Shown: positions 1,716 to 17,895 of the stretch, in pieces
Position numbering within the stretch: the stretch's first letter is position 1
How the letters are laid out: each line of letters opens with the position of its first letter
Origin: Spirochaetota bacterium
Lineage (GTDB): Bacteria > Spirochaetota > JAAYUW01 > JAOAHJ01
NCBI GenBank assembly: GCA_026415295.1
Contig: JAOAHJ010000023.1
Location: forward strand, 62,001-126,000
DNA: 64,000 nt
Reading direction: 5' to 3'
Made by a program: the position numbers and the translations under genes
The notes under the pieces: model-generated
Seen by the model: the letters and a program-made list of their open reading frames with translations, nothing else
The model's database searches: none
Told to the model about the DNA's origin: nothing

Positions 1716-2573
1716 ATGGATATAAGAAATATGAAACTTGAAAGTGGATGGTATCCAAAAGATAGTATTTCCATTAAAGAAAAATTTAAACAACTTGAAT
1801 TAAATTATAAAAAATTAAAATTTGATTTTAAAGAAAAAAATAAAAATATAAACCTTTCTATTCTTCCTCATGCTGGATGGTTCTTCACTGAAGATTTAAT
1901 ATTTAATAATTTAAAATTAATTTCTGAACTAAATCCACAAATTGATGTTATAATTATAATTGGTGGACACCAAGATGATATGGGGGTTCCCATAATCTTA
2001 AATTATAAATATCTTTCAACCCCCCTTGGCAATATTGAATGTTTAACAGAATTAATTGATAAAATTAAAGTAACATTTAATATGAAAGATGAAAATGATT
2101 ATATGTTTGATAACACTATTGAGATTTTTTTACCATTTATTAAATATTTGTTCCCAAATTCAAAAATTGTATCATATTATCCATTAGCTAATGAAAAAGC
2201 TTTTCTTATTTCAGACTATATCTACAATGAATTAAATAATAATAGATTAAACTTTATTGCAATTGGCTCTGCAGATCTTACTCATTATGGACCAAATTAT
2301 GGTTTTTCTCCTGCTGGAGTTGGACCTAAATCTTTTGAATGGGCAAAAGAAAATGATTTTAAGTTAATTAATTATTGTTTAAAACTTGATTTAGAATCTA
2401 TTTTAGCAAATTATAAAGAAATGAAGTTTACATGTTCTCCTAACTCTATAATTTCAATAATTAACTTTGCAAAACTCTTAAATAAAAATGAAGGATTTTT
2501 GATAGAATATTCAAACTCCTATTTAAAAATGAAATCATCTTCATTTGTAGGTTATGCATCAATTGTTTTCTAA
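1716..2573 (+). CDS. MEMO1/AmmeMemoRadiSam system protein B family
   Basis: A 285-aa protein of the Memo family, related in fold to extradiol dioxygenases. The residues that bind metal in human MEMO1 appear to be present: His in PHAGW (H52), His in GGHQD (H85), His in ADLTHYG (H190) and Cys in KFTCSPNS (C240). Bacterial members are often encoded with AMMECR1 and a radical SAM protein (the AmmeMemoRadiSam set); neither partner is in this neighbourhood, so it may act alone here or the partners may lie elsewhere. The start is ATG 1716 with TTGGAGGTAAA immediately upstream. It is the first gene of a plus-strand group with the tRNA methyltransferase and two MutS-like genes, although a promoter sequence precedes the next gene. 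The biochemical role of bacterial Memo proteins is not settled. Confidence 0.85.
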   Translation: MDIRNMKLESGWYPKDSISIKEKFKQLELNYKKLKFDFKEKNKNINLSILPHAGWFFTEDLIFNNLKLISELNPQIDVIIIIGGHQDDMGVPIILNYKYLSTPLGNIECLTELIDKIKVTFNMKDENDYMFDNTIEIFLPFIKYLFPNSKIVSYYPLANEKAFLISDYIYNELNNNRLNFIAIGSADLTHYGPNYGFSPAGVGPKSFEWAKENDFKLINYCLKLDLESILANYKEMKFTCSPNSIISIINFAKLLNKNEGFLIEYSNSYLKMKSSSFVGYASIVF

Positions 2574-2620
2574 TATTAATTTTTTAAATACAAAAGTATT
2601 TTATTAAAAATAATAATAAT

Positions 2621-2648
2621 TTGACATTTAATTAAATTTTTATAAAAT
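2621..2648 (+). promoter_or_regulatory. sigma-70-type promoter for trmI
   Basis: TTGACA at 2621-2626, a 16-base spacer and TAAAAT at 2643-2648 match the vegetative consensus well. Transcription would begin around 2655, leaving a leader of only about a dozen bases before the ATG at 2667. This fits the absence of a clear Shine-Dalgarno sequence there. Predicted by eye only. Confidence 0.5.
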
Positions 2649-2666
2649 TTCAAAAAAATATCTTCT

Positions 2667-3437
2667 ATGAACAATATAGATCCAAATGAATTTATTTATC
2701 TTTATAATTCTGAGAATGCAAATTATTTTTTAAAATATATTCCAGGCTTGAACTTCACATGTCATAAAGGAAATTTTATTTTCCCTGAAAATTTAAAATG
2801 GGGCGAAATAATAACAACTAACAAAGGGTACAAATTTTTTGTATTAAAGCCTGGAATAATTGAATTTTCAATGAAAGTTAAGAGAAAAAATACTATAATT
2901 TATCCTAAAGAAGCATCAAGAATCATTTTTGAACTGTCAATATTTCCAGGCAAACAAGTTGTTGAAATAGGCACCGGCTCAGGAGCTTTTACTTACATTC
3001 TTTCAAAATATGTAGGCAAAGAAGGAATGGTCTACACTTATGAAAAAGATAAAGAATTTTTAGAAAATGCTATTAATAATTTAAAAAAATATGATTTAGA
3101 TTTTAATAATATTATTTTTCATAATACTGATGCTTCAAAAGAACAAATTATTGAAAAAAACATTGATGCTGTTTTTGTTGACATTCCTGAACCATGGACA
3201 GTTGTAGAGAATGTTTACAATTGTTTAAAACCTGGATGCCCTGCTGGTTTTCTCAGTCCTTGTATTGAGCAAGTCCAAAAATGTGTAGAGAAAATGTATG
3301 AAATTGGATTTAGAAATATTAAAACTTTAGAACTTTTCGAAAGATACTTAAGAGTAAAAAAAGATATGACAAGACCCCTTGAACATATGATTGGACACAC
3401 AGCATATTTATATTTTGGATATAAAATTACTATTTAA
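2667..3437 (+). CDS. trmI: tRNA (adenine-N1)-methyltransferase, TrmI type
   Basis: A 256-aa SAM-dependent class I methyltransferase of the TrmI/Gcd14 family, which makes m1A58 in the T-loop of tRNA. The N-terminal small beta-barrel region (about 35-75) is followed by motif I VVEIGTGSGAFTY (98-110), then YTYEKDKEF for the SAM ribose-binding acidic residue and VFVDIPEPW (169-177), which corresponds to the family's catalytic DxPxPW segment. Length is normal for bacterial and archaeal TrmI. m1A58 by TrmI occurs in archaea, actinobacteria and many thermophilic bacteria, and is absent from E. coli. The start ATG lacks a Shine-Dalgarno sequence, but a promoter sits just upstream. It ends 9 bases before the first MutS-like gene, so cotranscription is likely. 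Confidence 0.88.
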   Translation: MNNIDPNEFIYLYNSENANYFLKYIPGLNFTCHKGNFIFPENLKWGEIITTNKGYKFFVLKPGIIEFSMKVKRKNTIIYPKEASRIIFELSIFPGKQVVEIGTGSGAFTYILSKYVGKEGMVYTYEKDKEFLENAINNLKKYDLDFNNIIFHNTDASKEQIIEKNIDAVFVDIPEPWTVVENVYNCLKPGCPAGFLSPCIEQVQKCVEKMYEIGFRNIKTLELFERYLRVKKDMTRPLEHMIGHTAYLYFGYKITI

Positions 3438-3446
3438 TTAAGTCAC

Positions 3447-4994
3447 ATGCCTTTAAGTTTATTAAATTTAGACAGAGAACCAACCTATTTAAATTATTCT
3501 AAAGAAACTATAAAAGATTTAATGCTTGATAAAACATTTGAAAACATAATTTATGATAAAAAATATGAATATATTAAGGAGTACTATTTTAAACCTTTAA
3601 ATGATTTAGAATATATTGAATACAGAAAGAATATTTTTAGTGATATAATTAGGTTAAAATTAAAAGAAAAAATTATAAAATTTAATGTAAATATAGAAAA
3701 AAGTTTAAGCTATTTTAATTTTAGTCAAAATCTTCATTACAATAATTTCAAAAAAATATTTTTTTTAAAATCAGCTTTAATATATTGCAATGAAATTATT
3801 GAGTTTGCTAATTATATTAATAATTTCGAATTTAACTCCATAGGTTTAATCAATTTAAAAAATTATTTAAACAACTATATAGAAAATGAAGGCTTTAAAA
3901 AGTTTTCAAAATATGCTTTTGATCTAGAAAATGAAATTAAAAGTATTAAATTTATACTTATTATTGATTATGGAAAAATCACTGTTAAAAAATATAAAAG
4001 TTATCCTCCTTATAAGGATAAAATTTTTAAAACATTTAATAATTTTATTTGTAAAGATAACAATATTTCTGAAATTAAAATCCTTGGTGATAATTTTATC
4101 TTAACAAATACAAATGTTAACCATATTGAAGAAAATATCTTAAAATTAGTATTTAAATTGTACCCCCAAATTTTTAGCAAGCTAAATAATTTTTCTGAAA
4201 ATTATTTTAACTTTTTTGACTCAACTCTGATAAATATTTCACAAGAAATTCCTTTTTATTATTTATATATTGAAATCATTGAAAAACTTAAAAATAAAAA
4301 TCTATCTTTTTCAATCCCTGAATTGAACAAAAAAAACAAAATTGAAAAGATTATAAATTCATTTGATATTAATTTAGCTATTAATTCAATAAATAAAGAA
4401 AATAAAATTGTTTTAAATAGTTATTATTTAGAAAATAATAAAAATGTTATTTTAATTTCAGGTCAAAATGGCAGTGGTAAAACTACCTTTGCCAGAATGA
4501 TTGGACAAGTCCATTATCTTGCATCTCTAGGCTTACCTGTTCCTGGGGAATATGCATATATATTTATTCCAGATTCTATATATACCCATTTTGAAAAAGA
4601 AGAAAATGTAATCGATATTAAAAGTAAACTTGAAAATGATTTATATAGAACTAAAGATATTATATGTAAATTATCAAATAAAAGTTTAATTATATTAAAT
4701 GAAATATTTTCATCAACTACATATTTTGATGCTCAAATTCTAATAAATAAAATATTAAATATTTTAGATAAAATTGATTGTGTTTCTATCTGGGTATCTT
4801 TTGTTATAAATCCTTTTATTTACAATCAAAAAGTAATAAGCATGGTTTCTCAAGTTAATGAAAGCAATCCCGGAATTAAAACATTTAAAATTATTATTAA
4901 TGAACCAAAAGAAAAAGCATATGCTAATTTTATAACTAAAAATTATAATTTAACTTTTGAAGATATTCTTAAAAGATTTAATAGCAAAATATGA
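3447..4994 (+). CDS. MutS-related ATPase, first of a tandem pair
   Basis: A 515-aa protein with the MutS core and ATPase region but no N-terminal mismatch-recognition domain and no Smr domain, so it is not MutS or MutS2 proper. Walker A is GQNGSGKTT (about 339-347), and THFEKEENVIDIKSKLEND matches the segment after Walker A that MutS-like families conserve. The Walker B region reads ILNEIFSSTT (about 416-425), with Asn where MutS has Asp. The C-terminal block ISMVSQVNES...KTFKI...KAYANFITKNYNLTFEDIL is shared with stand-alone MutS-like proteins. The position of the switch histidine is SFVINPF, without His. The next gene overlaps by 4 bases, so a heteromeric complex is plausible. The DNA substrate is unknown. 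Confidence 0.8.
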   Translation: MPLSLLNLDREPTYLNYSKETIKDLMLDKTFENIIYDKKYEYIKEYYFKPLNDLEYIEYRKNIFSDIIRLKLKEKIIKFNVNIEKSLSYFNFSQNLHYNNFKKIFFLKSALIYCNEIIEFANYINNFEFNSIGLINLKNYLNNYIENEGFKKFSKYAFDLENEIKSIKFILIIDYGKITVKKYKSYPPYKDKIFKTFNNFICKDNNISEIKILGDNFILTNTNVNHIEENILKLVFKLYPQIFSKLNNFSENYFNFFDSTLINISQEIPFYYLYIEIIEKLKNKNLSFSIPELNKKNKIEKIINSFDINLAINSINKENKIVLNSYYLENNKNVILISGQNGSGKTTFARMIGQVHYLASLGLPVPGEYAYIFIPDSIYTHFEKEENVIDIKSKLENDLYRTKDIICKLSNKSLIILNEIFSSTTYFDAQILINKILNILDKIDCVSIWVSFVINPFIYNQKVISMVSQVNESNPGIKTFKIIINEPKEKAYANFITKNYNLTFEDILKRFNSKI

Positions 4995-6511
4995 AAATAA
5001 GACTTTTATTTAAAGAAAAAGATTTCATTGAAAAATTTTTTTATAATTTAAATGACTTAAAACTTTCAGAAAAAATAAATGATGTTTCTTTGGAAAGACT
5101 AAAAGATTTAGGATTAGAAATTGTTTTATCATATATGAGTAAAAATGATAAAACAATTTATGAAGTATCTAAATTCTTATTCTGCAATATAAAAACTAAT
5201 GTTGAGACAATTAGATATAGACAAGAAATATTAAAAGACATTATAGTAAATAGAGAATTGATAAGAAAAATTTATGACATTACTTTTAAAGTAAAAGAAG
5301 AAAAAATAAAAAATTGGTTAGGAATTTTTGGAATAAAAACACCGTCAAATATCGTATATAATTCAAGGGAACTTTTACAAATATTTATTTTATATTTAGA
5401 AAAACTAAGAGATATTGCAAAAGAAAATATTAATAAATTTAAATCTTCTGGATTAAAAAATTTTTTTACTATGTTATTGGAAAATTTTAGTGACTCAAAT
5501 TTACTTGAATTAAAGCAAATGTTAAATAATTTAAAATTTGAAAAAGGATTATGTGCCTCTGCAAAAATTATAGAAAATATTGATCTTTTTAATTATGAAT
5601 TAGTTTATCTTGAAGAAAATATGAATTTTAATATACTAAAACAGAAAAACAGTTTTTATTTTAAAATAAATCCAAAAGATGAAGCTGGAGCTAAAATAGT
5701 TGAAAGCATAAAAAATACAATATTGAAAGATATTGCTAATATACTATACAATGCATCATTAAATATCGAATTATTTTTTAATAAACTTCAAATAGAATTA
5801 TCTTTCTATATAGGAGCATTAAATCTAATTGAATTTCTCGAACAAAATAATTATTACTATTGTTTTCCTGATCCATTAAACAGTATTTCAAATAAAATTG
5901 AATTCGAAGATCTATTTGATCTGAGTCTTTTTTTAGTAACTAAAACAAAATTAGTTGCTAATTCATTTAAATCTGATAATAAAAACATATTTATAATTTC
6001 AGGTGCTAACAAAGGAGGTAAAACTACTTTTTTAAGAAGCATAGGTATAGCTCAAATCCTTATGCAATCTGGGCTTATTGTGCCGGCTAAGTTATTTAAA
6101 AGTAATATTTATTCAGATATATTAACCCATTTTAAAAAAGAAGAAGATAAAAACCTTACTAAAGGTAAATTCGAAGAAGAAGTTTGCAGAATAAATAATA
6201 TTATATCTAATCTTAAATGTCCTTCTTTACTTTTATTTAACGAATCATTTTCATCGACAAATGAAATGGAAGCTTCTGAAATAGCTTACAATATAATTTT
6301 AGCTTTGTCTCATTTAAATAACACCATATTTTATGTAACACATCTTCATTCTCTACCAACAATGTTAATAGATAACAACAGAACATGTTTTTTAATTGCA
6401 GAAATTTTGAACAACAAGAAAAGAACTTATAAAATAATAGAAGGAGCTCCTTCTAAAACTTCTTATGCTATTGATCTACTTGAAAATATTTTCAAATCTT
6501 TACTTAATTAA
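4991..6511 (+). CDS. MutS-related ATPase, second of a tandem pair
   Basis: A 506-aa paralogue of the preceding protein, with its ATG inside an ATGA overlap, indicating translational coupling. Walker A is GANKGGKTTFLRS (about 338-350), then THFKKEEDKNLTKGKFEEEV, then Walker B LLLFNESFSST (about 413-423), again with Asn replacing the first acidic residue. Unlike its neighbour it keeps a histidine in YVTHLHSLP, as in canonical MutS. The N-terminal half is predicted helical, has the lever/core character of MutS domains III-IV, and lacks the mismatch-binding Phe-x-Glu motif. Together the pair looks like an asymmetric two-subunit DNA-binding ATPase rather than a mismatch sensor; this is inference from the motifs. 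Confidence 0.8.
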   Translation: MKIRLLFKEKDFIEKFFYNLNDLKLSEKINDVSLERLKDLGLEIVLSYMSKNDKTIYEVSKFLFCNIKTNVETIRYRQEILKDIIVNRELIRKIYDITFKVKEEKIKNWLGIFGIKTPSNIVYNSRELLQIFILYLEKLRDIAKENINKFKSSGLKNFFTMLLENFSDSNLLELKQMLNNLKFEKGLCASAKIIENIDLFNYELVYLEENMNFNILKQKNSFYFKINPKDEAGAKIVESIKNTILKDIANILYNASLNIELFFNKLQIELSFYIGALNLIEFLEQNNYYYCFPDPLNSISNKIEFEDLFDLSLFLVTKTKLVANSFKSDNKNIFIISGANKGGKTTFLRSIGIAQILMQSGLIVPAKLFKSNIYSDILTHFKKEEDKNLTKGKFEEEVCRINNIISNLKCPSLLLFNESFSSTNEMEASEIAYNIILALSHLNNTIFYVTHLHSLPTMLIDNNRTCFLIAEILNNKKRTYKIIEGAPSKTSYAIDLLENIFKSLLN

Positions 6512-6553
6512 AAAATCTAGTATATTTGCAAGATAAATCTTCTTTAATAAATA

Positions 6554-7027
6554 TTATTTTCTTTCTTTAATATTTAAACCAAATTCTCCAGTGTATTCTT
6601 CTTTTGCACCCCAAACAAAAATATATACTTTATCCCCTTCTGCTTTAACAACAGCAGCTGGTTTATTCTTATCTTGAGGAGTATATCCACCATCTCCTAA
6701 AGTTTTCGAAGTATTTGGTTCAGTATATATTTCCTTTGGATAAGCTGTATCTTTTGTTTCACCTTTTCTAACCTGAAACCAGAGAGCTTTTAATGTAAAA
6801 TCTGAATTATAAGAATCATAAAGCCATATTTCGTAAGTTTTACCTTTTACAGCATCAAAGAAGAATAAAAATTCTCCACCTTTCTCCATTTTAAATTTCA
6901 ATAATTTACCAATTTCTACTTTTTGAGCAGAAGTTCTACTTTGAGCTAATGTAGAAATTGAACTAAAAATAGTTAAAAGAGCAAACAAAAGTACAAAAAT
7001 GGTTAAAAATAATTTTAATTTTTTCAT
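6554..7027 (-). CDS. Secreted 157-aa protein sharing a domain with the adjacent YfcC transporter
   Basis: I do not recognise a named family. The protein has a classical signal peptide (Lys-rich start, hydrophobic core about 5-26, probable cleavage after STLAQ) and a single beta-rich domain of about 115 residues. That domain is clearly homologous to the extra C-terminus of the transporter at 8642-10567. Shared blocks include KTYEIWLYDSYNS / KTYEIYLIDSFNN, FTLKALWF / FTLKAIYF, EIYTEP / DIYTEP, GGYTP, KPAA, and YTGEFGLNIKE / YSGTFGLMIKE. The pattern of a chain of beta strands with GKTYEI weakly recalls pre-peptidase C-terminal-like sandwiches. GGAGG lies upstream of the ATG. It is divergent from the cyanophycinase gene, so it likely belongs to the same functional unit, perhaps as a periplasmic ligand or polymer-binding protein. 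Confidence 0.75.
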   Translation of the reverse strand: MKKLKLFLTIFVLLFALLTIFSSISTLAQSRTSAQKVEIGKLLKFKMEKGGEFLFFFDAVKGKTYEIWLYDSYNSDFTLKALWFQVRKGETKDTAYPKEIYTEPNTSKTLGDGGYTPQDKNKPAAVVKAEGDKVYIFVWGAKEEYTGEFGLNIKERK

Positions 7028-7273
7028 AATAACACTCCTCCAAAATATTTTTAATAACTATCTATAACTACTATAATATATATAAAAAATATTTCAATAT
7101 TTTTTATTTTTTATTAATAAATTTTAAAAATCAAATTTTATTATTTTTTTTTTTATTATTATTATATTATTTTTATTTTATATTATTGATTATTTGTTAA
7201 ATTTTGTTAATATTTTTATAAGTTGATAGTTTTCTCAAATAAAAAAATATTAATAAATTTTTGGGAGGAAATA

Positions 7274-8614
7274 ATGAAAAAAAAACAGTTTCTTTTTACT
7301 ATACTGATTATAACTTTTATTTTTATTATTTCATGTAAAATGCCTCAATCATCATTTAAAATCACTTATGGCGAAAATAAAGGATCTCTTGTTATTATTG
7401 GTGGTGCATTAAAATCTACTAACAAAAGTGTGTATAACAAAATTATTGAACTAGGTGGAGGTATTTTTAAAGCTAAAGTAGCTATTTTCCCTACTGGTTC
7501 AGGCAATCCAGCAGACTCAGGTTCATATTACAAGTCTGTTTTTATGAATTATGGAATACCAAGAGAAAACATATGGGTTGTTCCTCTTGCAAAAAAAGAT
7601 GATCCTTTAACAACAGAGATTAATGAAAAAAACTGGGCTGAAAATGCAAAACCTGAAAATGCTATTAAAATAGCAAATAAATTAAAAAAATACAATATTA
7701 TTTTTTTTACGGGTGGGGATCAAATTAGAATTAGAGATTTATTAATGGATAGAGCTGATGGTAAATATGTTGATAATGCTATCTTAAAAGCAATAAGAGA
7801 AATCTACAAAAAAGGTGGTGTTATTGCAGGAACTTCAGCAGGAGCTGCAATTATGACAAGCCCAATGATAGGTGGTGGAAATAGTCTTGGAGCTATGCTA
7901 CAAGGTTTTACCTCTATTGATAATTATGATATACCAGATGATCAAAGAGTATTTATTACAGATGGACCTGGTTTTTTACAGAAACCTGAAATTGCTATCG
8001 ATCAACATGCTATAAAAAGAGGCAGATTTGGAAGATTAATTGTTTCAATGATAGCAAATAACCAAAAACTAGGATTTGCAGTGGATGAAAATACCGCTTT
8101 AATTATAAGAGGTAACATAGCTGAGGTTGCTGGAGAATCAGGAGTTTTAATTATTGACCTTTCTGAAGCTAGTTATTCAAATAGTTTTCCTCTATCAGCT
8201 AAAAATATTAAAATATCTTATATAGAAGAATTAGATATATATGATTATGTAAATAAAAAACTAATTAAAAAAGCTTATTACAAAACATTACCAACCAAAA
8301 ATAATGAATATTATACTCATCTTACAAATATTTCTGCTGCAATTTTAGAAGCTGATGTTATTAAAAGACTTTTAATAGAAGATTTAGTTGATCATGCAAA
8401 TAATGATTTTGTTATTGCAATTGCTTTTGATGGCCTTGGAAAATTAAAAGGAATAAAGCCAGGAACTGGCGTTAAATTAATATTTAGAAAAGGTTCTGAT
8501 ACAAACGGATGGGGTGGAAGAGACCTTATATCTGGTGAATGGAAGACTTCTGTATTTAATGTTTACCTTGATATTGAACCCACTCAAGTTTCAATAAAAG
8601 GTGTTAATCAATAA
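7274..8614 (+). CDS. Lipoprotein cyanophycinase-like serine peptidase (S51)
   Basis: A 446-aa protein with a lipoprotein signal: MKKKQ, a hydrophobic core and FIISC as lipobox, so it should be exported and lipidated. I place the start at ATG 7274, preceded by GGGAGGAAATA; a longer in-frame start at 7223 would put a non-signal extension in front. The peptidase S51 core shows GSLVIIGGALKS, KVAIFPTGSG, IIFFTGGDQ and GVIAGTSAGAAIM, the last containing the nucleophile serine (about residue 188). Cyanophycinases cut the multi-L-arginyl-poly-L-aspartate polymer to beta-Asp-Arg dipeptides; extracellular forms exist in heterotrophs. The C-terminal 130 residues extend past the S51 core. A transporter gene starts 27 bases downstream, so hydrolysis and import of product are probably linked. 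Activity on other beta-aspartyl peptides is possible. Confidence 0.85.
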   Translation: MKKKQFLFTILIITFIFIISCKMPQSSFKITYGENKGSLVIIGGALKSTNKSVYNKIIELGGGIFKAKVAIFPTGSGNPADSGSYYKSVFMNYGIPRENIWVVPLAKKDDPLTTEINEKNWAENAKPENAIKIANKLKKYNIIFFTGGDQIRIRDLLMDRADGKYVDNAILKAIREIYKKGGVIAGTSAGAAIMTSPMIGGGNSLGAMLQGFTSIDNYDIPDDQRVFITDGPGFLQKPEIAIDQHAIKRGRFGRLIVSMIANNQKLGFAVDENTALIIRGNIAEVAGESGVLIIDLSEASYSNSFPLSAKNIKISYIEELDIYDYVNKKLIKKAYYKTLPTKNNEYYTHLTNISAAILEADVIKRLLIEDLVDHANNDFVIAIAFDGLGKLKGIKPGTGVKLIFRKGSDTNGWGGRDLISGEWKTSVFNVYLDIEPTQVSIKGVNQ

Positions 8615-8641
8615 AAATAAAATATTTTAAAGGAGTATATT

Positions 8642-10567
8642 ATGGTAGCAAATAATAAAAAGTATAATACAATAAACTCTTATGCAATTATTTTTTTTAT
8701 TGTTATTTTTATATGGTTACTTACTTATATTATACCAGTTGGAAAATTCGAAAATAGAGCTCAATATTATTTTGACAAAAAGCATCAAGAATTGAATATT
8801 ATAAATGTTATAGATCCTGATTCTTATGAAATGTTAATAGATGCTAATGGTAAACCACAAAAACTTGAAGTTCCTATTTTTGGAGAATTTACCGGTATTG
8901 GATTACTTAACTATATATTTGAAGGTGGTAAATCTGCTGTATCTATTATCCTTTTCATTCTTATTGTTGGTGGTTCTTTTGGCATTATAATGAAAACTAA
9001 ATCAATTGATGAAGGTATTTTAAGTATAATCAACAAATTTAAAAGTTTTGATATAATATTAATACCTATTTTATTTTTCCTCTTTTCCTTAGGTGGAGCT
9101 GTATTTGGAATGGGAGAAGAAGCTATCGCATTTGCCATTATTGTTATCCCTATTTTAGTATCTTTAGGATATGATGCAGTACTTGGAGTATTAATAACTT
9201 ATGGTGCAACACAAATTGGATTTGCAACATCATGGATGAATCCTTTTTCTCTAGTTATTGCCCAAGGTATAGCTAATGTTCCTATTTTATCAGGAGCAAC
9301 ACTCAGAATTATTATATGGTTCCTTTTTACAATAGGGGGAATAATTTTTTGTATTATTTATGGAAATAAAATTAAAAAGGATCCTTCAAAATCGCTAAGC
9401 TATGATACTGATAATGAGTATTTCAGAAAGCAATTAAATTCTAATAATATTGAAACTAAATTTACAATTGGTCATCTTTTAATTATTTTAACACTATTTA
9501 TTGGTATTATTTGGATAATTTATGGTGTTGTTGTAAAAGAATATTATATAGGAGAAATAGCTGCTCAATTTTTTACAATAGGTTTAATTTCAGCAATCAT
9601 AGCTTTAATATTTAAGTTAAATAATATGAATATAAATGATGTATGTGATGCTTTTATTACTGGTGCTAAAGATTTACTACCAGCCGCATTAATTGTAGGA
9701 ATGGCTAAAGGTATAATTATCATTATGACATTAGGAAATCCTTCTTTAAGTGCAACTTCTCCAAATATATTAAATACAATACTTTTTTATACTGGTAATT
9801 CTTTGAAAAAGCTTCCTACTTTTATTACTATATTTTTTATGTATCTATTTCAATCAGTATTTAACTTTTTCGTACCATCTGGTTCTGGGCAAGCATCTTT
9901 AACTATGCCAATATTAGCACCTATTGCCAAAATGTCAAACATTTCAAGGCAAACTGCAATACTTGCATTTCAATTTGGAGACGGTTTTACAAATTTAATA
10001 GTCCCAACATCAGCTGCTTTAATGGGAGTTTTAGCAATAGCTAAAATAGATTGGTCAAAATGGTTTAAATTCATGTTAAAAATTCAAATTGCTATTTTCA
10101 TAATCTGCTTTTTCATTCTTTGTTTTACAACTATTCCATTTTTTGCTAAAGCTTTAGGGAGTGATTGGATTGAACCAGAAATGATAATTAATCAACAATT
10201 AAAGAAAGAGGTAAAGCCTAATGTTTTATATGAATATAATTTACCCGAAAAAAATGAATTTTACATAAAAATAAATGTTAATGAAAATAAAACTTATGAA
10301 ATATATTTAATAGACTCTTTTAATAACTCTTTCCATAAGACAAAATTTACATTAAAAGCAATATACTTCGAAATATATAATAAAAATAAAACTGAAATAT
10401 ATAAAGATATTTATACTGAACCCGCAAAATCAGGAGGTTATACTCCAGAATCTGAAAAACCAGCAGCTATAATCACTCCAAAAGAAAATGTTATTTATAT
10501 TAGAGTTAAAGGTGATAAAGATATTTATAGTGGAACATTTGGTTTAATGATCAAAGAAAAAAAATAA
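8642..10567 (+). CDS. YfcC/DcuC-family transporter with an extra C-terminal domain
   Basis: A 641-aa integral membrane protein. Residues 1-510 have the YfcC pattern: WLLTYIIPVGKFE at the first helix, LFILIVGGSFGIIMKT, FSLGGAVFGMGEEAIAF, FNFFVPSGSGQASLTMPI and GDGFTNLIVPTSAALMGVL. I count about 12 membrane segments. YfcC members are secondary transporters thought to handle basic amino acids, peptides or dicarboxylates. After the last helix, residues about 525-641 form a soluble domain that typical members lack and that matches the secreted protein at 6554-7027. The gene follows the lipoprotein cyanophycinase with AAAGGAG before its ATG, and a strong terminator follows. I infer uptake of beta-Asp-Arg, arginine or related peptides. 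The side of the membrane carrying the tail is not certain. Confidence 0.82.
   Translation: MVANNKKYNTINSYAIIFFIVIFIWLLTYIIPVGKFENRAQYYFDKKHQELNIINVIDPDSYEMLIDANGKPQKLEVPIFGEFTGIGLLNYIFEGGKSAVSIILFILIVGGSFGIIMKTKSIDEGILSIINKFKSFDIILIPILFFLFSLGGAVFGMGEEAIAFAIIVIPILVSLGYDAVLGVLITYGATQIGFATSWMNPFSLVIAQGIANVPILSGATLRIIIWFLFTIGGIIFCIIYGNKIKKDPSKSLSYDTDNEYFRKQLNSNNIETKFTIGHLLIILTLFIGIIWIIYGVVVKEYYIGEIAAQFFTIGLISAIIALIFKLNNMNINDVCDAFITGAKDLLPAALIVGMAKGIIIIMTLGNPSLSATSPNILNTILFYTGNSLKKLPTFITIFFMYLFQSVFNFFVPSGSGQASLTMPILAPIAKMSNISRQTAILAFQFGDGFTNLIVPTSAALMGVLAIAKIDWSKWFKFMLKIQIAIFIICFFILCFTTIPFFAKALGSDWIEPEMIINQQLKKEVKPNVLYEYNLPEKNEFYIKINVNENKTYEIYLIDSFNNSFHKTKFTLKAIYFEIYNKNKTEIYKDIYTEPAKSGGYTPESEKPAAIITPKENVIYIRVKGDKDIYSGTFGLMIKEKK
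10215..10564 (+). other. Domain duplicated between transporter C-terminus and secreted protein
   Basis: This stretch encodes about residues 525-641 of the YfcC transporter. Its translation aligns along almost its full length with the mature part of the secreted protein encoded at 6554-7027, with conserved KTYEI, DS(Y/F)N, FTLKA, IYTEP, GGYTP, KPAA and FGL.IKE blocks in the same order. Either a gene fusion or a duplication of a secreted module onto a transporter produced it. The domain itself has no family name I can give with confidence. Confidence 0.75.
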
Positions 10568-10716: not shown

Positions 10717-11382
10717 TTAATTTTGTAAAATAGAATTTACTTTAATCACTTTTTTATTTTTAACAAAAAATTGATATGAATATATATTGCCAAATTCATC
10801 AATTCCATATCTACCATATAACCATATTTCAACAGTAGAATCATTTTCATCAAGAGAAATACTATCTGGATACCCAAGTTCAAATTCAAGATCTTCAGTA
10901 GATTTACCAAGTTCATCAAATTTTTCTAAATAGTAATGATCAAATGATTTATACTGGGAAGGATGCTGAAATACTTTTTCTGCATTAAACATTATATTCT
11001 TTGCTTCTTCAGTATTTTGAAAATACCATTGCTCAATCTTTTCATCATATTCCATTTCTATATAATTTCCTTTAAAATTGATTTTTACAACTCTATCAAA
11101 ATCATCAGAATAACTATCAATTTGAACTATATAAAGATTTTTTTTAATTTCTAATATTTGAAAAGTACCAGCTCCATTGTATCTATAGCCTTCCTTTCTA
11201 AATTTCCCATCTTTAAAAAACTCTATTGTATAAAACAAATTTGAACCTGGTAATTTATAATACCACTTTCCTATAAGCTTATTTTCTACTTTTTTATTAC
11301 AAGAATAAAAATTTGTAAATACAAACAAAATGATTAGAATTATTAGTATATTATTAACAATGTTATTTTTGAGTAATTTCAT
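10717..11382 (-). CDS. Lipoprotein with lipocalin-like and BamE/SmpA-like segments
   Basis: A 221-aa predicted lipoprotein: hydrophobic residues about 10-27 end in NFYSC, a plausible lipobox. The first half (LIGKWYYKLPGSNLFYTIEFFKDGKF ...) looks like the small beta-barrel, lipocalin-like domains common in secreted bacterial proteins that begin with a GxW motif. The second half contains EDLEFELGYPDSI...EIWLYGRYG...FFVKNKKVIKV, which recalls the BamE/SmpA fold (helix, GxP, then strands with W.Y). No catalytic motif is seen. ATTAAAGGATGG precedes the ATG. It is transcribed alone, with about 290 bases of gene-free AT-rich DNA upstream. The function is unknown; an outer-membrane-associated envelope protein is likely. 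Confidence 0.7.
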   Translation of the reverse strand: MKLLKNNIVNNILIILIILFVFTNFYSCNKKVENKLIGKWYYKLPGSNLFYTIEFFKDGKFRKEGYRYNGAGTFQILEIKKNLYIVQIDSYSDDFDRVVKINFKGNYIEMEYDEKIEQWYFQNTEEAKNIMFNAEKVFQHPSQYKSFDHYYLEKFDELGKSTEDLEFELGYPDSISLDENDSTVEIWLYGRYGIDEFGNIYSYQFFVKNKKVIKVNSILQN

Positions 11383-11669: not shown

Positions 11670-13118
11670 CTATTTATATGATACACCAGAAATTATATTT
11701 TTAAACCTAGCAGGAGATGCTCCATGTGTCATTCTCATAATTTGAGCTGGTTGTCCCTTACCACAATTCATTACACCCCAACCTACCCAATGATTTTCAT
11801 TCGCAATCATATCACATGACTGCCAGAATTCAGGGGTTATTCCTTGATAAGTAGGATTTTTAACAACTTCTTTTATTTTACCATTTTTTATTACATATCC
11901 AATTTCACATGTGAACTGAAAATTAAGTCTCATCTGATCTATACTCCATGTTTTAACTCCATCTACATAAACACCATCATCTGTTGCTGAAATAATCTCA
12001 TCAAATTCTTTATCCCCAGGAAGTAAAGAAATATTAACCATTCTTATGATAGGAATTGAAGAAAAAGAGTCAGCTCTATTACATCCAAAACTTCTTTCAT
12101 ATCCTGCATAATGACAAAATTCCCTATTTGTTAGATAGTTTTGATATAATCCATCCTTAACCAAAAACCATCTTTGAGCTCTAACACCATCATCATCATA
12201 ACCAAAAGTTCCAAGCCCATTTGGTAAAGTTGAATCTGCAACAATATTTACAATATTTGAACCATAATGAAAATTTTTAAAAATATTAGTTTTTAAAAAT
12301 GAAGATCCTGCATAGTTTTCTTCCATTCCGAGTACCCTATCAAGTTCTGAAGGGTGTCCACAAGACTCATGAATTTGTAAGGCAAGTTGAGAACCACCAA
12401 TTATAAGATCTCTTCTTCCGTATGGTAAATCTTTAGCTGTTAATAATGATACTGCTTCCTCTCTTATTCTTTCAGCATTTTCTAAAAATTTTAAACCCTC
12501 TATTATTTCCCATCCACCTTGGCAGAATTGTCCTTCAAAAGATTGAGGATAAGACCTTCTTTGGACTATTCCACCTTCAATAGCTGTTGCTGAATATCCT
12601 CCCCCAGAGACAAAAAAAGTTTGTTTTATCATAGAACCTTCTGAATTAGCAAAATATTTTATCTCTTTCTCAAAACCAAGAGTTCCTTCTGCTATTTTTA
12701 TTTTTTCATCTTTTCTTAATATTTTATCAACTTCGAGTAATAATCCTAATTTTTTATCGAATGAAACCTTAAATGGATCAACTTGAATTAATGTTTGCCA
12801 AACATCATTATAAGGTGGTTCATAAGCTAATTCAACATATTTATTTCTTAAATAAGATGAAGATTTAGCTATTTGACATGCATATTTAGTTATTCTATCT
12901 ATTTCTTCTTCATTTAAAACAGAAGAAGCAGCAAACCCCCAACCACCATTAACAATAACTCTTACCCCAAAACCTAATTTAGTATAATATTTATAATTAT
13001 CAACAAGGCCATTTTTAACTTTAATCCATTCACCAGTAGTTTCAATAATTCTAATATCAGCATAACTTGCCCCATTTAATTTAGCCAAATTCAATGCTCT
13101 ATATAAATAATCTTTCAT
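11670..13118 (-). CDS. tldD: Metalloprotease TldD
   Basis: A 482-aa member of the U62 peptidase family, full length for TldD. The zinc-binding motif HESCGHPSE (about residues 248-256, HExxxH) is present and the C-terminus ends in the conserved GKGQPAQIMRMTHGASPARF. TldD pairs with TldE (PmbA) in a heterodimer that degrades unfolded peptides; in E. coli the pair matures microcin B17 and degrades CcdA antitoxin. Here tldD lies downstream of tldE, with 63 bases between them on the same strand and AAAGGAG before the ATG, so both subunits are made from one unit. Only TldD carries the catalytic metal site. No peptide-natural-product gene is seen nearby, so a general peptide-turnover role is most likely. 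Confidence 0.93.
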   Translation of the reverse strand: MKDYLYRALNLAKLNGASYADIRIIETTGEWIKVKNGLVDNYKYYTKLGFGVRVIVNGGWGFAASSVLNEEEIDRITKYACQIAKSSSYLRNKYVELAYEPPYNDVWQTLIQVDPFKVSFDKKLGLLLEVDKILRKDEKIKIAEGTLGFEKEIKYFANSEGSMIKQTFFVSGGGYSATAIEGGIVQRRSYPQSFEGQFCQGGWEIIEGLKFLENAERIREEAVSLLTAKDLPYGRRDLIIGGSQLALQIHESCGHPSELDRVLGMEENYAGSSFLKTNIFKNFHYGSNIVNIVADSTLPNGLGTFGYDDDGVRAQRWFLVKDGLYQNYLTNREFCHYAGYERSFGCNRADSFSSIPIIRMVNISLLPGDKEFDEIISATDDGVYVDGVKTWSIDQMRLNFQFTCEIGYVIKNGKIKEVVKNPTYQGITPEFWQSCDMIANENHWVGWGVMNCGKGQPAQIMRMTHGASPARFKNIISGVSYK

Positions 13119-13181
13119 ATTTATCTCCTTTATTTTTAAAATATTTTTCTCTTAAAACTCTATTTAATTAATTGATTATTG

Positions 13182-14510
13182 TTAAAAATTTGTTACTGAA
13201 GTAAAATTAAAATCTTTTATTTTAGCATATGGAACTTCAATAAAACTCATTTCAAAAAAAGAAACATTTTTTAGTTCTGAACTTAAAACTTCTATTCTTT
13301 TAATAGCTTCAATAATTGATTCAGTGAATCTTAGGTTGTTGGTTGCTCCAACAATTTCTCCATTTTCTATAAGGAAAACCCCATCTCTTGTCATTCCAGT
13401 AACTGAAAGTTCCATAGGATCTATAATATTCATATAATGAAAATTATTAATAAATAATCCTTTTTTTGTATTTTTAATAATTTCTTTATAAGCTGTATTA
13501 CCTTTTTCTACTTTTGGGTATATAGGGAAAACTTCTTGAGATGGAATTGAAAACCCATTTCCTGTATTTGGGACATTTAACTTTTTAGATAAATATCTAT
13601 TTGTTAAAATTGTGCAAGGAATTCCATTTTTAATTAAATATTTAGTTTGAACTGGTATTCCTTCGAAATCAAATGTATAAACTGGATTCCCATTATTTAA
13701 TGGATCATCTATTAAATTAAAAAAATCAGGAAATATTTTTTTATTTAATTCTTTAACAAGAAAGGTTCTATTTTCAAGAAAATATTTACCAGAAAAAGAA
13801 AACCATAACATATAACTTAAAAACTCGCCAAAAGCATCAGGGGTTAATATTACATCATATCTTCCTTCTTTTATATTTATCTTGTTATTCATCCAATTTA
13901 ATTTCTTTTTTATATTTTCATAAATCTCTTTTGGATTAAAATTTTTCTCATCGAAGCCTCCAATTTCTTCTCTTGTAAAATTTTCTCCCTTTTTAGAAGA
14001 TATTGAAAAACTAAAAGTACCATTTATATTTTCTCCATAAAGATTTTTGGAGTTAGAAAAAATTAATTTTTGTTTATTATTTGAAATTATACCAGCTGAA
14101 ACAATATTTTCTTCTTTAAGCTTATTAACTATTTCTGCTACATTATCGGCTTTCCATTGTGGAGTAATATTTGAAAGTTTTTCATCAAAACTAATTTTTG
14201 TTTCATAAACCTTATTTCCCTCAAGTGGAAATAATCTTTCATCCTCAGGCTGAAGATCTATAATTTTCTCCAATTTATTATATGCATTTTTAATAGAAAC
14301 ATCAGAAAAATCACTAATATAAATAGAAGCAGTTTTTTTACCTTTAATAACTCTAATTTCAGCTGTTAAATTTCTTGATGAAACATTTTGACTTATCTCA
14401 TTGTTTCCAAATCTAGTTAGTTCTTTAAAATCCTCATAATATGTAACCTCAGTTTCATCAAATTTTGAAAATGAAATTATCTTATCAACTAATTTTTTTT
14501 CATTAAACAT
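13182..14510 (-). CDS. pmbA: TldE/PmbA subunit of the TldD/TldE protease
   Basis: A 442-aa partner of TldD. Recognisable features are the N-terminal domain with NLTAEIRVIKGKKTASIYI, the central DVILTPDAFGEFLSYML, and the C-terminal FHYMNIIDPMELSVTGMTRDG and VGATNNLRFTESI blocks typical of PmbA. As usual for TldE, the HExxxH zinc motif is absent; the subunit shapes the active site and peptide channel. It is the first gene of the pair, with TTTAAGGAGTAAT before the ATG. Upstream lies about 500 bases of gene-poor sequence that contains the flagellin promoter on the other strand. A promoter for this gene should lie near 14511-14600, but I could not single one out. Confidence 0.9.
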   Translation of the reverse strand: MFNEKKLVDKIISFSKFDETEVTYYEDFKELTRFGNNEISQNVSSRNLTAEIRVIKGKKTASIYISDFSDVSIKNAYNKLEKIIDLQPEDERLFPLEGNKVYETKISFDEKLSNITPQWKADNVAEIVNKLKEENIVSAGIISNNKQKLIFSNSKNLYGENINGTFSFSISSKKGENFTREEIGGFDEKNFNPKEIYENIKKKLNWMNNKINIKEGRYDVILTPDAFGEFLSYMLWFSFSGKYFLENRTFLVKELNKKIFPDFFNLIDDPLNNGNPVYTFDFEGIPVQTKYLIKNGIPCTILTNRYLSKKLNVPNTGNGFSIPSQEVFPIYPKVEKGNTAYKEIIKNTKKGLFINNFHYMNIIDPMELSVTGMTRDGVFLIENGEIVGATNNLRFTESIIEAIKRIEVLSSELKNVSFFEMSFIEVPYAKIKDFNFTSVTNF

Positions 14511-15011: not shown

Positions 15012-15869
15012 ATGATAATAAATCATAACATATCTTCTTTATTTGCTAATAGGCAATTAAAGTTTAACACCTGGAATGTTAACAAAGAAATACAAAAACT
15101 ATCTTCAGGTGAAAGAATCAATAATGCTGCTGATGATGCATCAGGTCTAGCAGTATCAGAAAAGATGAGATCTCAAATAAGAGGTCTTTTGCAAGCTGAA
15201 AAAAATGCTGAAAATGGAATTTCATTTATTCAAACAGCTGAAGGATACTTAATTGAAACAACTGAAATTCTTCAAAGAATAAGAGAACTTGCTGTTCAAT
15301 CAGCAAATGGAATCTATTCTGAAGATGACAGAATGCAGATTCAAGTTGAAGTTGAGCAATTAGTTGATGAAGTTGATAGAATAGCTTCTCATGCTCAATT
15401 TAATGGAATGAATATCTTAACTGGAAGGTTTGCTGATGTATCTAAAGGTGGAACTCCTGTTGCATCTATGTGGTTCCATGTTGGAGCTAATATGGATCAA
15501 AGAATAAGAGTTACAATTGGAACAATGACTTCTAAAGGTTTAGGAATTAGAACAATCACAGGATCAGCTTTATCAATTTCAACTGTTGAAAAAGCAAACA
15601 TGACTATAGGACAAATAGATAAAGCTTTACAATTAGTTTCAAAACAAAGAGCTGATCTTGGTGCTTATCAAGAAAGACTTGAATTCTTAAGTAAAGGTCT
15701 TTTAATTGGAGCTGAAAACATGCAAGCTGCTGAAAGTAGAATAAGAGATACAGATATGGCTTTAGAGATGTCTTATTTTACAAAAGATCAAATTTTAGTT
15801 CAATCTGCTACAGCAATGCTTGCACAAGCTAATGCTCAACCTCAATTAATTTTAAGACTTTTAGGATAA
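15012..15869 (+). CDS. flaB: FlaB-type flagellin, first copy
   Basis: A 285-aa core flagellin of the spirochaete periplasmic flagellum. It starts [16 protein letters not shown] like FlaB proteins and has the D0/D1 signature [24 protein letters not shown] cut only slightly from the consensus. The C-terminal D1/D0 helix contains [14 protein letters not shown] and ends in LRLLG. There is no large D2/D3 surface domain; the middle (about 135-180) is short, as in other spirochaete FlaB proteins of about 286 aa. No signal peptide is present, as expected for export through the flagellar type III apparatus. The strong GGAGGAGGG ribosome site and a sigma-28-like promoter indicate high, late expression. 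It ends 37 bases before a strong terminator, so it can be transcribed alone. Confidence 0.96.
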
Positions 15870-15902
15870 TATTTTCTAGTCTGCCATTTATTCATTATAA
15901 AA

Positions 15903-15934
15903 GGTATAGGAGTTTCAAACTCCTATACCCTTTT
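15903..15934 (+). terminator. Terminator after the first flagellin gene
   Basis: GGTATAGGAGTTT and AAACTCCTATACC (15903-15915 and 15917-15929) are perfect 13-base inverted repeats around a single C, flanked by A's on the left and CTTTTATACTTTT on the right. This is a textbook intrinsic terminator, separating the first flagellin transcript from the second. Confidence 0.92.
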
Positions 15935-15969
15935 ATACTTTTAAAAGCTCTTTAAAATTTTTATATTTT

Positions 15970-16059
15970 CAACCAGGATTGGAGGATAAATTTTAATTTA
16001 ATTTTTTCTTTTTTATTCTCTTTTCCTGGTTGTTAAACTGCTTTGCACGTGGGCAGTTT
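15970..16059 (+). promoter_or_regulatory. Two inverted repeats in the leader of the second flagellin gene
   Basis: CAACCAGGA (15970-15978) pairs with TCCTGGTTG (16024-16032), enclosing 45 AT-rich bases, and AAACTGC (16035-16041) pairs with GCAGTTT (16053-16059). Both are exact. They sit between the terminator of the first flagellin and the start of the second and may stabilise or regulate the mRNA. No sigma-28-like promoter is evident in this stretch. Confidence 0.5.
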
Positions 16060-16071
16060 GCAGCCTTATAA

Positions 16072-16092
16072 GAGGAGATTTTACAAGGAGGG
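16072..16092 (+). promoter_or_regulatory. Paired GGA motifs in the second flagellin leader
   Basis: AGAGGAGAT at 16071-16079 and TACAAGGAG at 16082-16090, the latter matching the CsrA consensus UACARGGA, lie directly before ATG 16097 and overlap the ribosome binding site. The spacing is similar to that in the first flagellin leader. Confidence 0.45.
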
Positions 16093-16096
16093 TGGT

Positions 16097-16963
16097 ATGA
16101 TAATTAATCATAATCTTTCCAGCTTGTTTGCTAATAGACAGGTTAAATTCAGAAACTGGGAGATTCAGAAGAACATTGAAAAACTTTCATCCGGAGAGAG
16201 AATCAATAAAGCTGGTGATGATGCTTCAGGATTAGCTGTTTCTGAAAAAATGAGATCTCAAATTAGAGGATTAAGACAAGCTGAAAGAAATATTCAATCA
16301 GCTGTATCATTTATGCAAACTGCTGAAGGATACTTAGCTGAAACAACAGAGATCTTACAAAGAGCAAGAGAACTTGCAATTCAAGCTTCAAATGGAATTT
16401 ACACAGAAGATGATAGAGCTCAAATTCAACTTGAAATAGCTCAACTTGTAGATGAAATTGATAGAATTGCATCTCATGCTCAGTTCAATGGTTATAATAT
16501 TCTTACTGGAAGATTTGCTGCTGAACCTACAACAAGCCAAACAAATTCTATTCAGCAACCTGTCTTCTTTCATGTAGGCCCAAATATGGATCAAAGAGAA
16601 TATGTAACCATTGGTACTATGACTGCAGCTGGGCTAGGTATCATAAGTAGTACTGGAGAAACAATATCAGTTTCAACAGCTGATAAAGCAAATCTTTCTA
16701 TTGGAGTTATTGATAATGCCTTAAGAAAAGTAACAACACAGAGAGCTAAGCTTGGAGCATATCAAAACAGATTTGAACAAGCTCTATCCGGGGTTTCTAT
16801 TGCAGCAGAAAACCTTACAGCAGCTGAATCTCAAATAAGAGATACCAATATGGCTGAAATAATTTCTGAGTTTACTAAAAATCAGATAATTATCCAGGCA
16901 GGTACATCAATGCTTGCACAAGCAAATAATATACCTGCCCTGGTTCTTCGGCTTTTAGGCTAA
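16097..16963 (+). CDS. flaB: FlaB-type flagellin, second copy
   Basis: A 288-aa FlaB paralogue. I choose ATG 16097 ([15 protein letters not shown], with ACAAGGAGGGTGGT upstream); the frame is open back to 16043, but the extra 18 residues have no place in the family. It carries [35 protein letters not shown] and [13 protein letters not shown], and ends LVLRLLG. The variable middle contains an insert ([18 protein letters not shown]) that differs from its neighbours. Spirochaete filaments are built from several FlaB isoforms, so a structural role in the filament core is likely. It follows the first flagellin's terminator, and about 120 bases separate it from the third copy. Codons and flanks are noticeably richer in G+C than the surrounding genes. 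Confidence 0.95.
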
Positions 16964-17009
16964 GTTAGCGGATTTCAATCTTCCCTTCCAATTAATTTAA
17001 TTTAATACC

Positions 17010-17053
17010 TGGGAGAAATGATGGTGATTGGCTAGCCCACATCTTTTCTCCCA
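17010..17053 (+). promoter_or_regulatory. Leader hairpin before the third flagellin gene
   Basis: TGGGAGAAA (17010-17018) and TTTCTCCCA (17045-17053) are exact 9-base inverted repeats, with further inner pairing (GATG/CATC and the GGCTAGCC palindrome at 17030-17037). No T-tract follows, so it is not a standard terminator; an mRNA stability or processing structure between the second and third flagellin genes is more likely. Confidence 0.55.
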
Positions 17054-17076
17054 AAGGAATAAATCAGGGAGGGAGG
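17053..17076 (+). promoter_or_regulatory. Paired GGA motifs in the third flagellin leader
   Basis: AAAGGAAT (17053-17060) and CAGGGAGGGAGG (17065-17076) precede ATG 17083. The proximal one contains the Shine-Dalgarno. The match to the CsrA consensus is poorer than in the first two leaders, but the two-site layout is kept. Confidence 0.35.
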
Positions 17077-17082
17077 TTTTAT

Positions 17083-17895
17083 ATGATAATTAATCACAAC
17101 ATGTCCGCTAATTTCGCCAATCGTATGTTGAAAGCACAATACAGAGGCTTTACAAAATCTCTTGAAAAATTATCCTCCGGAGAGAGGATAAATTCTGCAG
17201 GGGATGATGCCTCTGGGCTTGCTGTATCTGAAAAATTAAGATCTCAAATAAGAGGATTGATACAAGCTGGTAAAAATGCTCAAAATGGTATCTCTTTTAT
17301 TCAAACTGCTGAAGGTTCGCTCCAGGAGGTTCATTCGATACTTTTAAGGACTAGAGAATTGGCTATACAGGCTGCAAATGGAATCTATTCAATTGAGGAT
17401 AGAAACCTAATCCAACTTGAAGTTGCTCAGCTTGTTGATGAAATTGATAGAATTTCTACAACAGCTGAATTCAATAAATTCAAGATCCTTGATGGAAGCT
17501 TGAAATCATTGAGACTTCATGTTGGACCAAATGCAGATCAAGCCTTCTCTATTCCTATTAGTACAATGACCTCACGTGCCCTGGGGCTTGAAGGCATATC
17601 TATTTCAACTGTAGAGAAAGCAAATGAAGCTATTGGTAGAGTTGATAATGCCGTAAATATAATTTCAACTCAAAGAGCTTCTTTTGGTGCAGCTCAAAAT
17701 AGGTTGTTTCATACAGTTGCTTCTCTTGAACAAGCTGCAGAGTCTCTACAGGGGGCAGAATCTCTTATTAGAGATACAGATATGTCTTCAGAAATTTTAG
17801 AATTTACTAAATACCAGCTCTTAACGCAATCCTCAGCATCAGTATTAGTTCAGGCTAATCTGATGCCAAATATTGTGCTTCAACTGCTTGGCTAG
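17083..17895 (+). CDS. flaB: FlaB-type flagellin, third copy
   Basis: A 270-aa flagellin, the shortest of the three. MIINHNMSANFANRML opens it, [20 protein letters not shown] and VDEIDRISTTAEFNK follow, and AESLIRDTDMSSEI and IVLQLLG close it. The middle loop is minimal (DGSLKSLRLHVGPNADQ), so it is almost pure D0/D1. With the two other copies it should form the filament core in the periplasm. The start ATG has GGGAGGGAGG 6 bases upstream. A GC-rich terminator follows at once. The G+C content and the use of C- and G-ending codons (TCC, GCC, CTC, AGG) are higher than in typical genes of the window, which suggests expression-driven codon choice or a different history. Confidence 0.95.
   Translation: MIINHNMSANFANRMLKAQYRGFTKSLEKLSSGERINSAGDDASGLAVSEKLRSQIRGLIQAGKNAQNGISFIQTAEGSLQEVHSILLRTRELAIQAANGIYSIEDRNLIQLEVAQLVDEIDRISTTAEFNKFKILDGSLKSLRLHVGPNADQAFSIPISTMTSRALGLEGISISTVEKANEAIGRVDNAVNIISTQRASFGAAQNRLFHTVASLEQAAESLQGAESLIRDTDMSSEILEFTKYQLLTQSSASVLVQANLMPNIVLQLLG

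Follow-up and report, generated by a model that had tools for sequence, protein, structure and literature searches.

To our knowledge, the ways in which scavengers capture cyanophycin, a nitrogen store that is insoluble, and import its products are poorly described. A three-gene locus in a Spirochaetota bacterium raises the question of why a transporter encoded beside a cyanophycinase carries, at its C-terminus, a domain that is also encoded nearby as a separate exported protein. We analyzed the locus within a window of 64,000 nucleotides (contig JAOAHJ010000023.1, assembly GCA_026415295.1) and by comparison with other genomes. Our preferred reading, to which we assign a probability of roughly 55%, is that this is a cyanophycin scavenging locus with a PPC-like accessory domain that links enzyme and importer. 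The new part is the domain: a partial literature search found no description of its family, of its association with S51 peptidases, or of its occurrence on a transporter. We know of no description of a capture module of this kind on a YfcC-type transporter.

Organization of the locus

The three-gene arrangement proposed in an earlier note was confirmed: a gene for an exported 157-aa protein on the minus strand lies divergent from genes for a cyanophycinase and a YfcC transporter, which are adjacent on the plus strand. The features are as follows.

6554..7027, minus strand: exported single-domain protein, 157 aa (open reading frame; signal peptide at about residues 1-29 by inspection)
6557..6913, minus strand: free copy of the putative PPC-like domain, residues 39-157 (BLASTP match to the transporter tail, family alignment, predicted beta-sandwich)
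7028..7273, no strand: intergenic region separating the divergent genes (sequence; sigma-54 scan)
7274..8614, plus strand: lipoprotein cyanophycinase, peptidase family S51, 446 aa (TIGR02069, PF03575, matches to solved structures, lipobox IISC by inspection)
8642..10567, plus strand: YfcC-family secondary transporter with a C-terminal extension, 641 aa (NF008611)
10205..10564, plus strand: transporter-tail copy of the putative PPC-like domain, residues 522-641 (BLASTP; transporter model; predicted extracytoplasmic)
11670..14510, minus strand: TldD and TldE/PmbA genes (identity to copies in genomes G001-G003; context, outside the unit)

The start of the cyanophycinase gene was corrected from the sequence. 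ATG 7274, which replaces an upstream TTG at 7223, is most likely the true start; translation from it gives a lipoprotein signal peptide (IISC) downstream of a good ribosome-binding site. A scan found no sigma-54 promoter upstream of the window's cyanophycinase, including the intergenic region 7028..7273, so shared sigma-54 control of the locus is unsupported.

Other genes of the window were also noted. Two neighbouring proteins of about 510 aa (3447-6511, plus strand) match MutS domain V alone, and their N-terminal halves belong to no Pfam family. Between the transporter and TldD, a lipoprotein-like protein of 221 aa is encoded that belongs to no known family (10717-11382, minus strand). By inspection, a tandem trio of flagellin-like genes occupies 15012-17895 (plus strand).

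The cyanophycinase

The middle gene had been read as a lipoprotein cyanophycinase, and apart from its start position this assignment stands. In profile searches the protein scores 153.9 bits against the TIGR02069 cyanophycinase model (cut-off 126.6) and matches PF03575 and the solved cyanophycinases 7uqv, 3en0, and 7uqw. Its GGDQ, GTSAGA, DQH...RxRxGRL, and DENTA blocks align to 7uqv and 3en0, and the core motif positions are invariant across our S51 alignment (A8). We take these motifs to be the catalytic Ser/His/Glu and the substrate-binding Gln/Arg. Like the extracellular cyanophycinase CphE, the enzyme is predicted to be exported and has S51 motifs; unlike CphE, it has a lipoprotein anchor. 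Two clostridial relatives of the enzyme instead have a C-terminal LysM domain. The genome also encodes a second S51 protein on another contig (L167, G000:C28, about 6000-6550, plus strand). This 388-aa, lipoprotein-like protein lacks the new domain and is of the subtype found in two distantly related genomes described below (G343 and G344).

The YfcC transporter and its tail

The third gene is, as originally proposed, a YfcC transporter (621 bits against NF008611, cut-off 500, covering positions 4-484 of 492). A predicted model resembles the AbgT-family structures YdaH/MtrF and the INDY structures; the free 157-aa protein was left out of the alignment used for this prediction, as it misaligned there. 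The full-length core is that of a YfcC protein (DcuC family, PF03606), but about 120 residues are added as a tail outside the membrane. The tail starts near residue 522, past the last transmembrane helix. A lysine-rich stretch (468-480) precedes that helix, and by the positive-inside rule the C-terminus is predicted to lie outside the cytoplasm, which in a diderm cell would be the periplasm. An extracytoplasmic tail agrees with the remaining copies of the domain, all of which follow signal peptides or lipoboxes. Among those measured, intact YfcC frames beside other cyanophycinases extend no more than 26 residues beyond the core. A domain-YfcC fusion was seen in the window's genome alone among the spirochaete genomes and cyanophycinase loci searched. 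An apparent 1243-aa YfcC-cyanophycinase fusion (L154) was rejected as a frame artefact, as the enzyme there is read in a different frame, from a start and signal peptide of its own.

Probable cyanophycin utilization

The earlier note had treated enzyme and importer as one unit, and comparison with other loci supports this as a cyanophycin-utilization unit. In a sample of 80 cyanophycinase loci drawn from several phyla of a named genome collection, YfcC was found within 10 kb of the cyanophycinase in 34, nine of these within 160 bp; restricting the sample to loci with full flanks gives 26 of 54. The YfcC-bearing loci come from Bacillota, Pseudomonadota, Bacteroidetes, Aminicenantes, and others. 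The isoaspartyl dipeptidase IadA is present in 11 of the 80. The pairing of S51 and YfcC is common, already described, and not new. Specifically, PMC10206079 gives cyanophycin utilization loci as a cyanophycinase, iadA, and a transporter, attributes them to Ben Hania et al., and names strain L21-Spi-D4. As in the loci outlined there, the window's genome combines an external cyanophycinase with a transporter and an isoaspartyl dipeptidase, and has no full-length cyanophycin synthetase. Unlike them, the set is split across two contigs, and it includes an extra free exported domain protein and a domain-tailed transporter.

No isoaspartyl dipeptidase occurs in the window's cyanophycinase cluster. 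Instead, IadA (528.7 bits) is encoded on contig C24 straight after a second YfcC (738 bits), the order there being sigma-54 activator, YfcC, and IadA (L161, G000:C24, 3923-9075). A -24/-12 promoter (TGGCAT-N5-TTGCA) lies upstream of this second YfcC, and the scan also found sigma-54 promoters upstream of YfcC and cyanophycinase genes in Clostridia. The best match to cyanophycin synthetase in the genome scored 56.9 bits and none exceeded the cut-off of 850 (the assembly is 96% complete). Given the pathway genes and the lack of a synthetase, the simplest view of the species is that it scavenges cyanophycin from outside, and we consider scavenging by the enzyme, importer, and IadA highly likely.

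Two further arrangements were observed. In the clostridial loci L081 and L083, an activator of the type found on contig C24 is located between YfcC and a LysM cyanophycinase. By inspection, the cyanophycinase of some other spirochaetes (L023-L026) is flanked by a sigma-54 activator and an oligopeptide-binding protein, so another type of importer may replace YfcC there.

A domain shared by exported protein and transporter

The C-terminus of the transporter repeats the domain of the exported protein, as had been noticed by eye. The two are homologous, with 40% identity over 128 aa (80 bits, E 2e-22 in a single BLASTP comparison), far above chance. They are the only copies in the 2.1 Mb genome. 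The tail retains the conserved motifs of the family. In a tree of 13 domain copies the window's two pair weakly (53/72), so origin by local duplication is no more than likely.

Convincing instances of the domain were found in only six spirochaete genomes among those searched. A two-copy alignment used as query had no match in public genome and viral contig collections, and the exported 157-aa protein is in no plasmid record. In three other species of the class (G001-G003) the domain occurs three times within a single exported protein, which is about 440 residues long. Both cyanophycinase and IadA are absent from these sister species. Three species therefore keep the domain without a cyanophycinase, and the domain is not cyanophycin-specific. 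Each of the four species of the class has TldD and TldE genes close to its domain genes, on the opposite side of the pair in the window compared with G001-G003. The window's TldD and TldE/PmbA share 63-66% and 39-43% identity, respectively, with the copies beside the three-domain genes. These shared neighbours make an ancestral linkage probable.

The three-copy gene of G001-G003 adjoins genes for a response regulator and a histidine kinase (L164, L165, L166). The domain could accordingly be an envelope ligand-sensing module, one that feeds the adjacent kinase in the sister species. Against this, tblastn with the G001-G003 loci shows no such kinase or regulator near the window's domain genes, and none was seen beside the domain gene of G343; we regard a sensing role as very improbable.

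A profile of 11 domain copies run against 393 genomes of the phylum recovered two more genomes, G343 and G344, both from a distant family (per-genome E 4.9e-12 and 6.9e-12). G344 encodes a 628-aa lipoprotein with S51 in the middle and a copy of the domain at the C-terminus. In G343 the domain by itself makes up a lipoprotein of 184 aa, whose gene is convergent with that of an S51 lipoprotein. Thus the recurring linkage that had been suggested holds for S51 peptidases, fused in one genome of the distant family and neighbouring in the other, but not for YfcC. The S51 parts of G343 and G344 score 73 and 61 bits against the cyanophycinase model, below the cut-off, so their substrate may differ. 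They match solved cyanophycinases, and the positions of the catalytic serine, histidine, and glutamate are conserved in them, as are the arginines.

These findings bear on the main alternative to an accessory role, that a horizontally gained cyanophycinase-YfcC pair landed by an old domain gene and fused with it by chance, the domain having a general envelope role unrelated to cyanophycin. Such an accident would fit the presence of domain genes near TldD/TldE in four species, three of them without a cyanophycinase. It would also fit the single observed joining of domain and transporter, as well as the best-scoring outside relatives of the enzyme, which include clostridial loci that also have YfcC. 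It does not predict that a distant family would again have the domain joined to or beside S51. We estimate the chance of a random gene lying this near S51 at about 0.5% (assuming 2-3 S51 genes in a 2-4 Mb genome, and treating G343 and G344 as one event at worst). Persistence of the family's conserved motifs in the tail also argues against an accident. As only one fusion was seen, and as the domain is used by sister species that have no cyanophycinase, we retain this alternative, and consider it unlikely.

Probable relationship to PPC domains

No Pfam or NCBIfam model matches the domain. Specifically, PF04151 (PPC) gave no match up to E 10 to the 11 domain copies or the domain lipoprotein of G343, and solved structures searched with a profile of the domain gave matches at chance level only. 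An AlphaFold2 model made from a two-sequence alignment is of moderate quality (pLDDT 72, pTM 0.71). Its top PDB matches are the collagen-binding/PPC domains of collagenases (TM 0.57-0.61, E down to 2.7e-4, rmsd about 5 A), and the lysozyme inhibitor PliG is also among its fold matches. Compared by hhalign with 26 spirochaete PPC domains, the domain gives a weak, colinear match (pairwise E 0.0012, score 23.6; 60 column shuffles gave no more than 15.1, and reversal 10.1). The domain profile also picks up a protein with six repeats assigned to PPC by Pfam (E 5e-8 to 5e-9). The earlier note did not know the domain from any described system, but the fold and the weak profile links place it near the PPC domain found on secreted peptidases. 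The comparisons point to a divergent PPC-like beta-sandwich that is not a member of PF04151 by profile.

Like PPC domains (including 1nqj and 5sv5; TM 0.57-0.58, query-normalized), the new domain is a predicted all-beta sandwich. It is also predicted to be extracytoplasmic, and is C-terminal on a secreted peptidase in G344. Unlike them, it has its own conserved motifs (D.YN, Y, G..T), is joined to S51, and is found on a transporter and in separate proteins as well. The conserved D, Y, and N positions may serve binding. PPC domains have been listed for peptidase families M4, M9, M28, and S8; those of protease E495 bind protein substrates, and another is cited as essential for attaching to insoluble substrates (PMC3327674).

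PPC domains have also been proposed to inhibit proteases until they are needed, and those of MCP-03 reduce its catalytic efficiency (PMC3327674). By analogy, the free domain could act on the peptidase in trans much like a pro-domain, regulating or inhibiting it instead of holding substrate. The match to PliG and the occurrence of the free domain as a separate gene by S51 in two genomes are consistent with this role, but it leaves unexplained both the transporter copy and the three-copy proteins that lack S51, and we view it as improbable.

Proposed mechanism

We prefer the reading in which the domain is a PPC-like accessory of S51 peptidases, which we consider fairly likely. Its likeliest job as an extracytoplasmic accessory of these surface enzymes would be to bind the polymer or the peptidase. 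The envelope-held S51 lipoprotein would cut insoluble cyanophycin, or a similar beta-linked Asp-Arg peptide, to beta-Asp-Arg. The dipeptide, or the arginine set free, would be the substrate imported by YfcC, and IadA, encoded elsewhere with the second YfcC, would split the dipeptide intracellularly. The domain, present both as the transporter tail and as a free exported protein, could hold enzyme, polymer, and importer near each other and so favor hand-over. Capture or tethering that couples enzyme to importer is tentative, and we put it at somewhat less than an even chance. Doubtful, and less probable still, is the broader generalization that this PPC-like family serves largely extracytoplasmic S51 peptidases, as a module on enzyme, free carriers, and importer that couples digestion of insoluble polymers to uptake. 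How the polymer could meet the transporter depends on which way the lipoprotein enzyme faces, towards the periplasm or towards the medium. Should the domain bind either polymer or enzyme, its fusion to the transporter would demonstrate that digestion and uptake are directly and physically connected. S51 peptidases and a secondary transporter would then join the proteins known to carry PPC-type accessory domains.

Related proteins in other spirochaetes

A second search, of 394 genomes of the order that contains G343 and G344, added two weak matches and nothing else, one to a PPC-repeat protein and one to a distantly similar domain. Pattern matches in G431 and G461 (f42) were rejected: they are a PPC-repeat protein and a distantly similar domain of a lipoprotein. 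At L218 a 438-aa protein with two genuine PPC domains (2026-3342, plus strand) is divergent from the S51-domain fusion of G344. At L227 (7679-8812, minus strand), the C-terminal domain of a lipoprotein has the DSYN and G.F motifs of the new domain and seems to stand between that domain and PPC.
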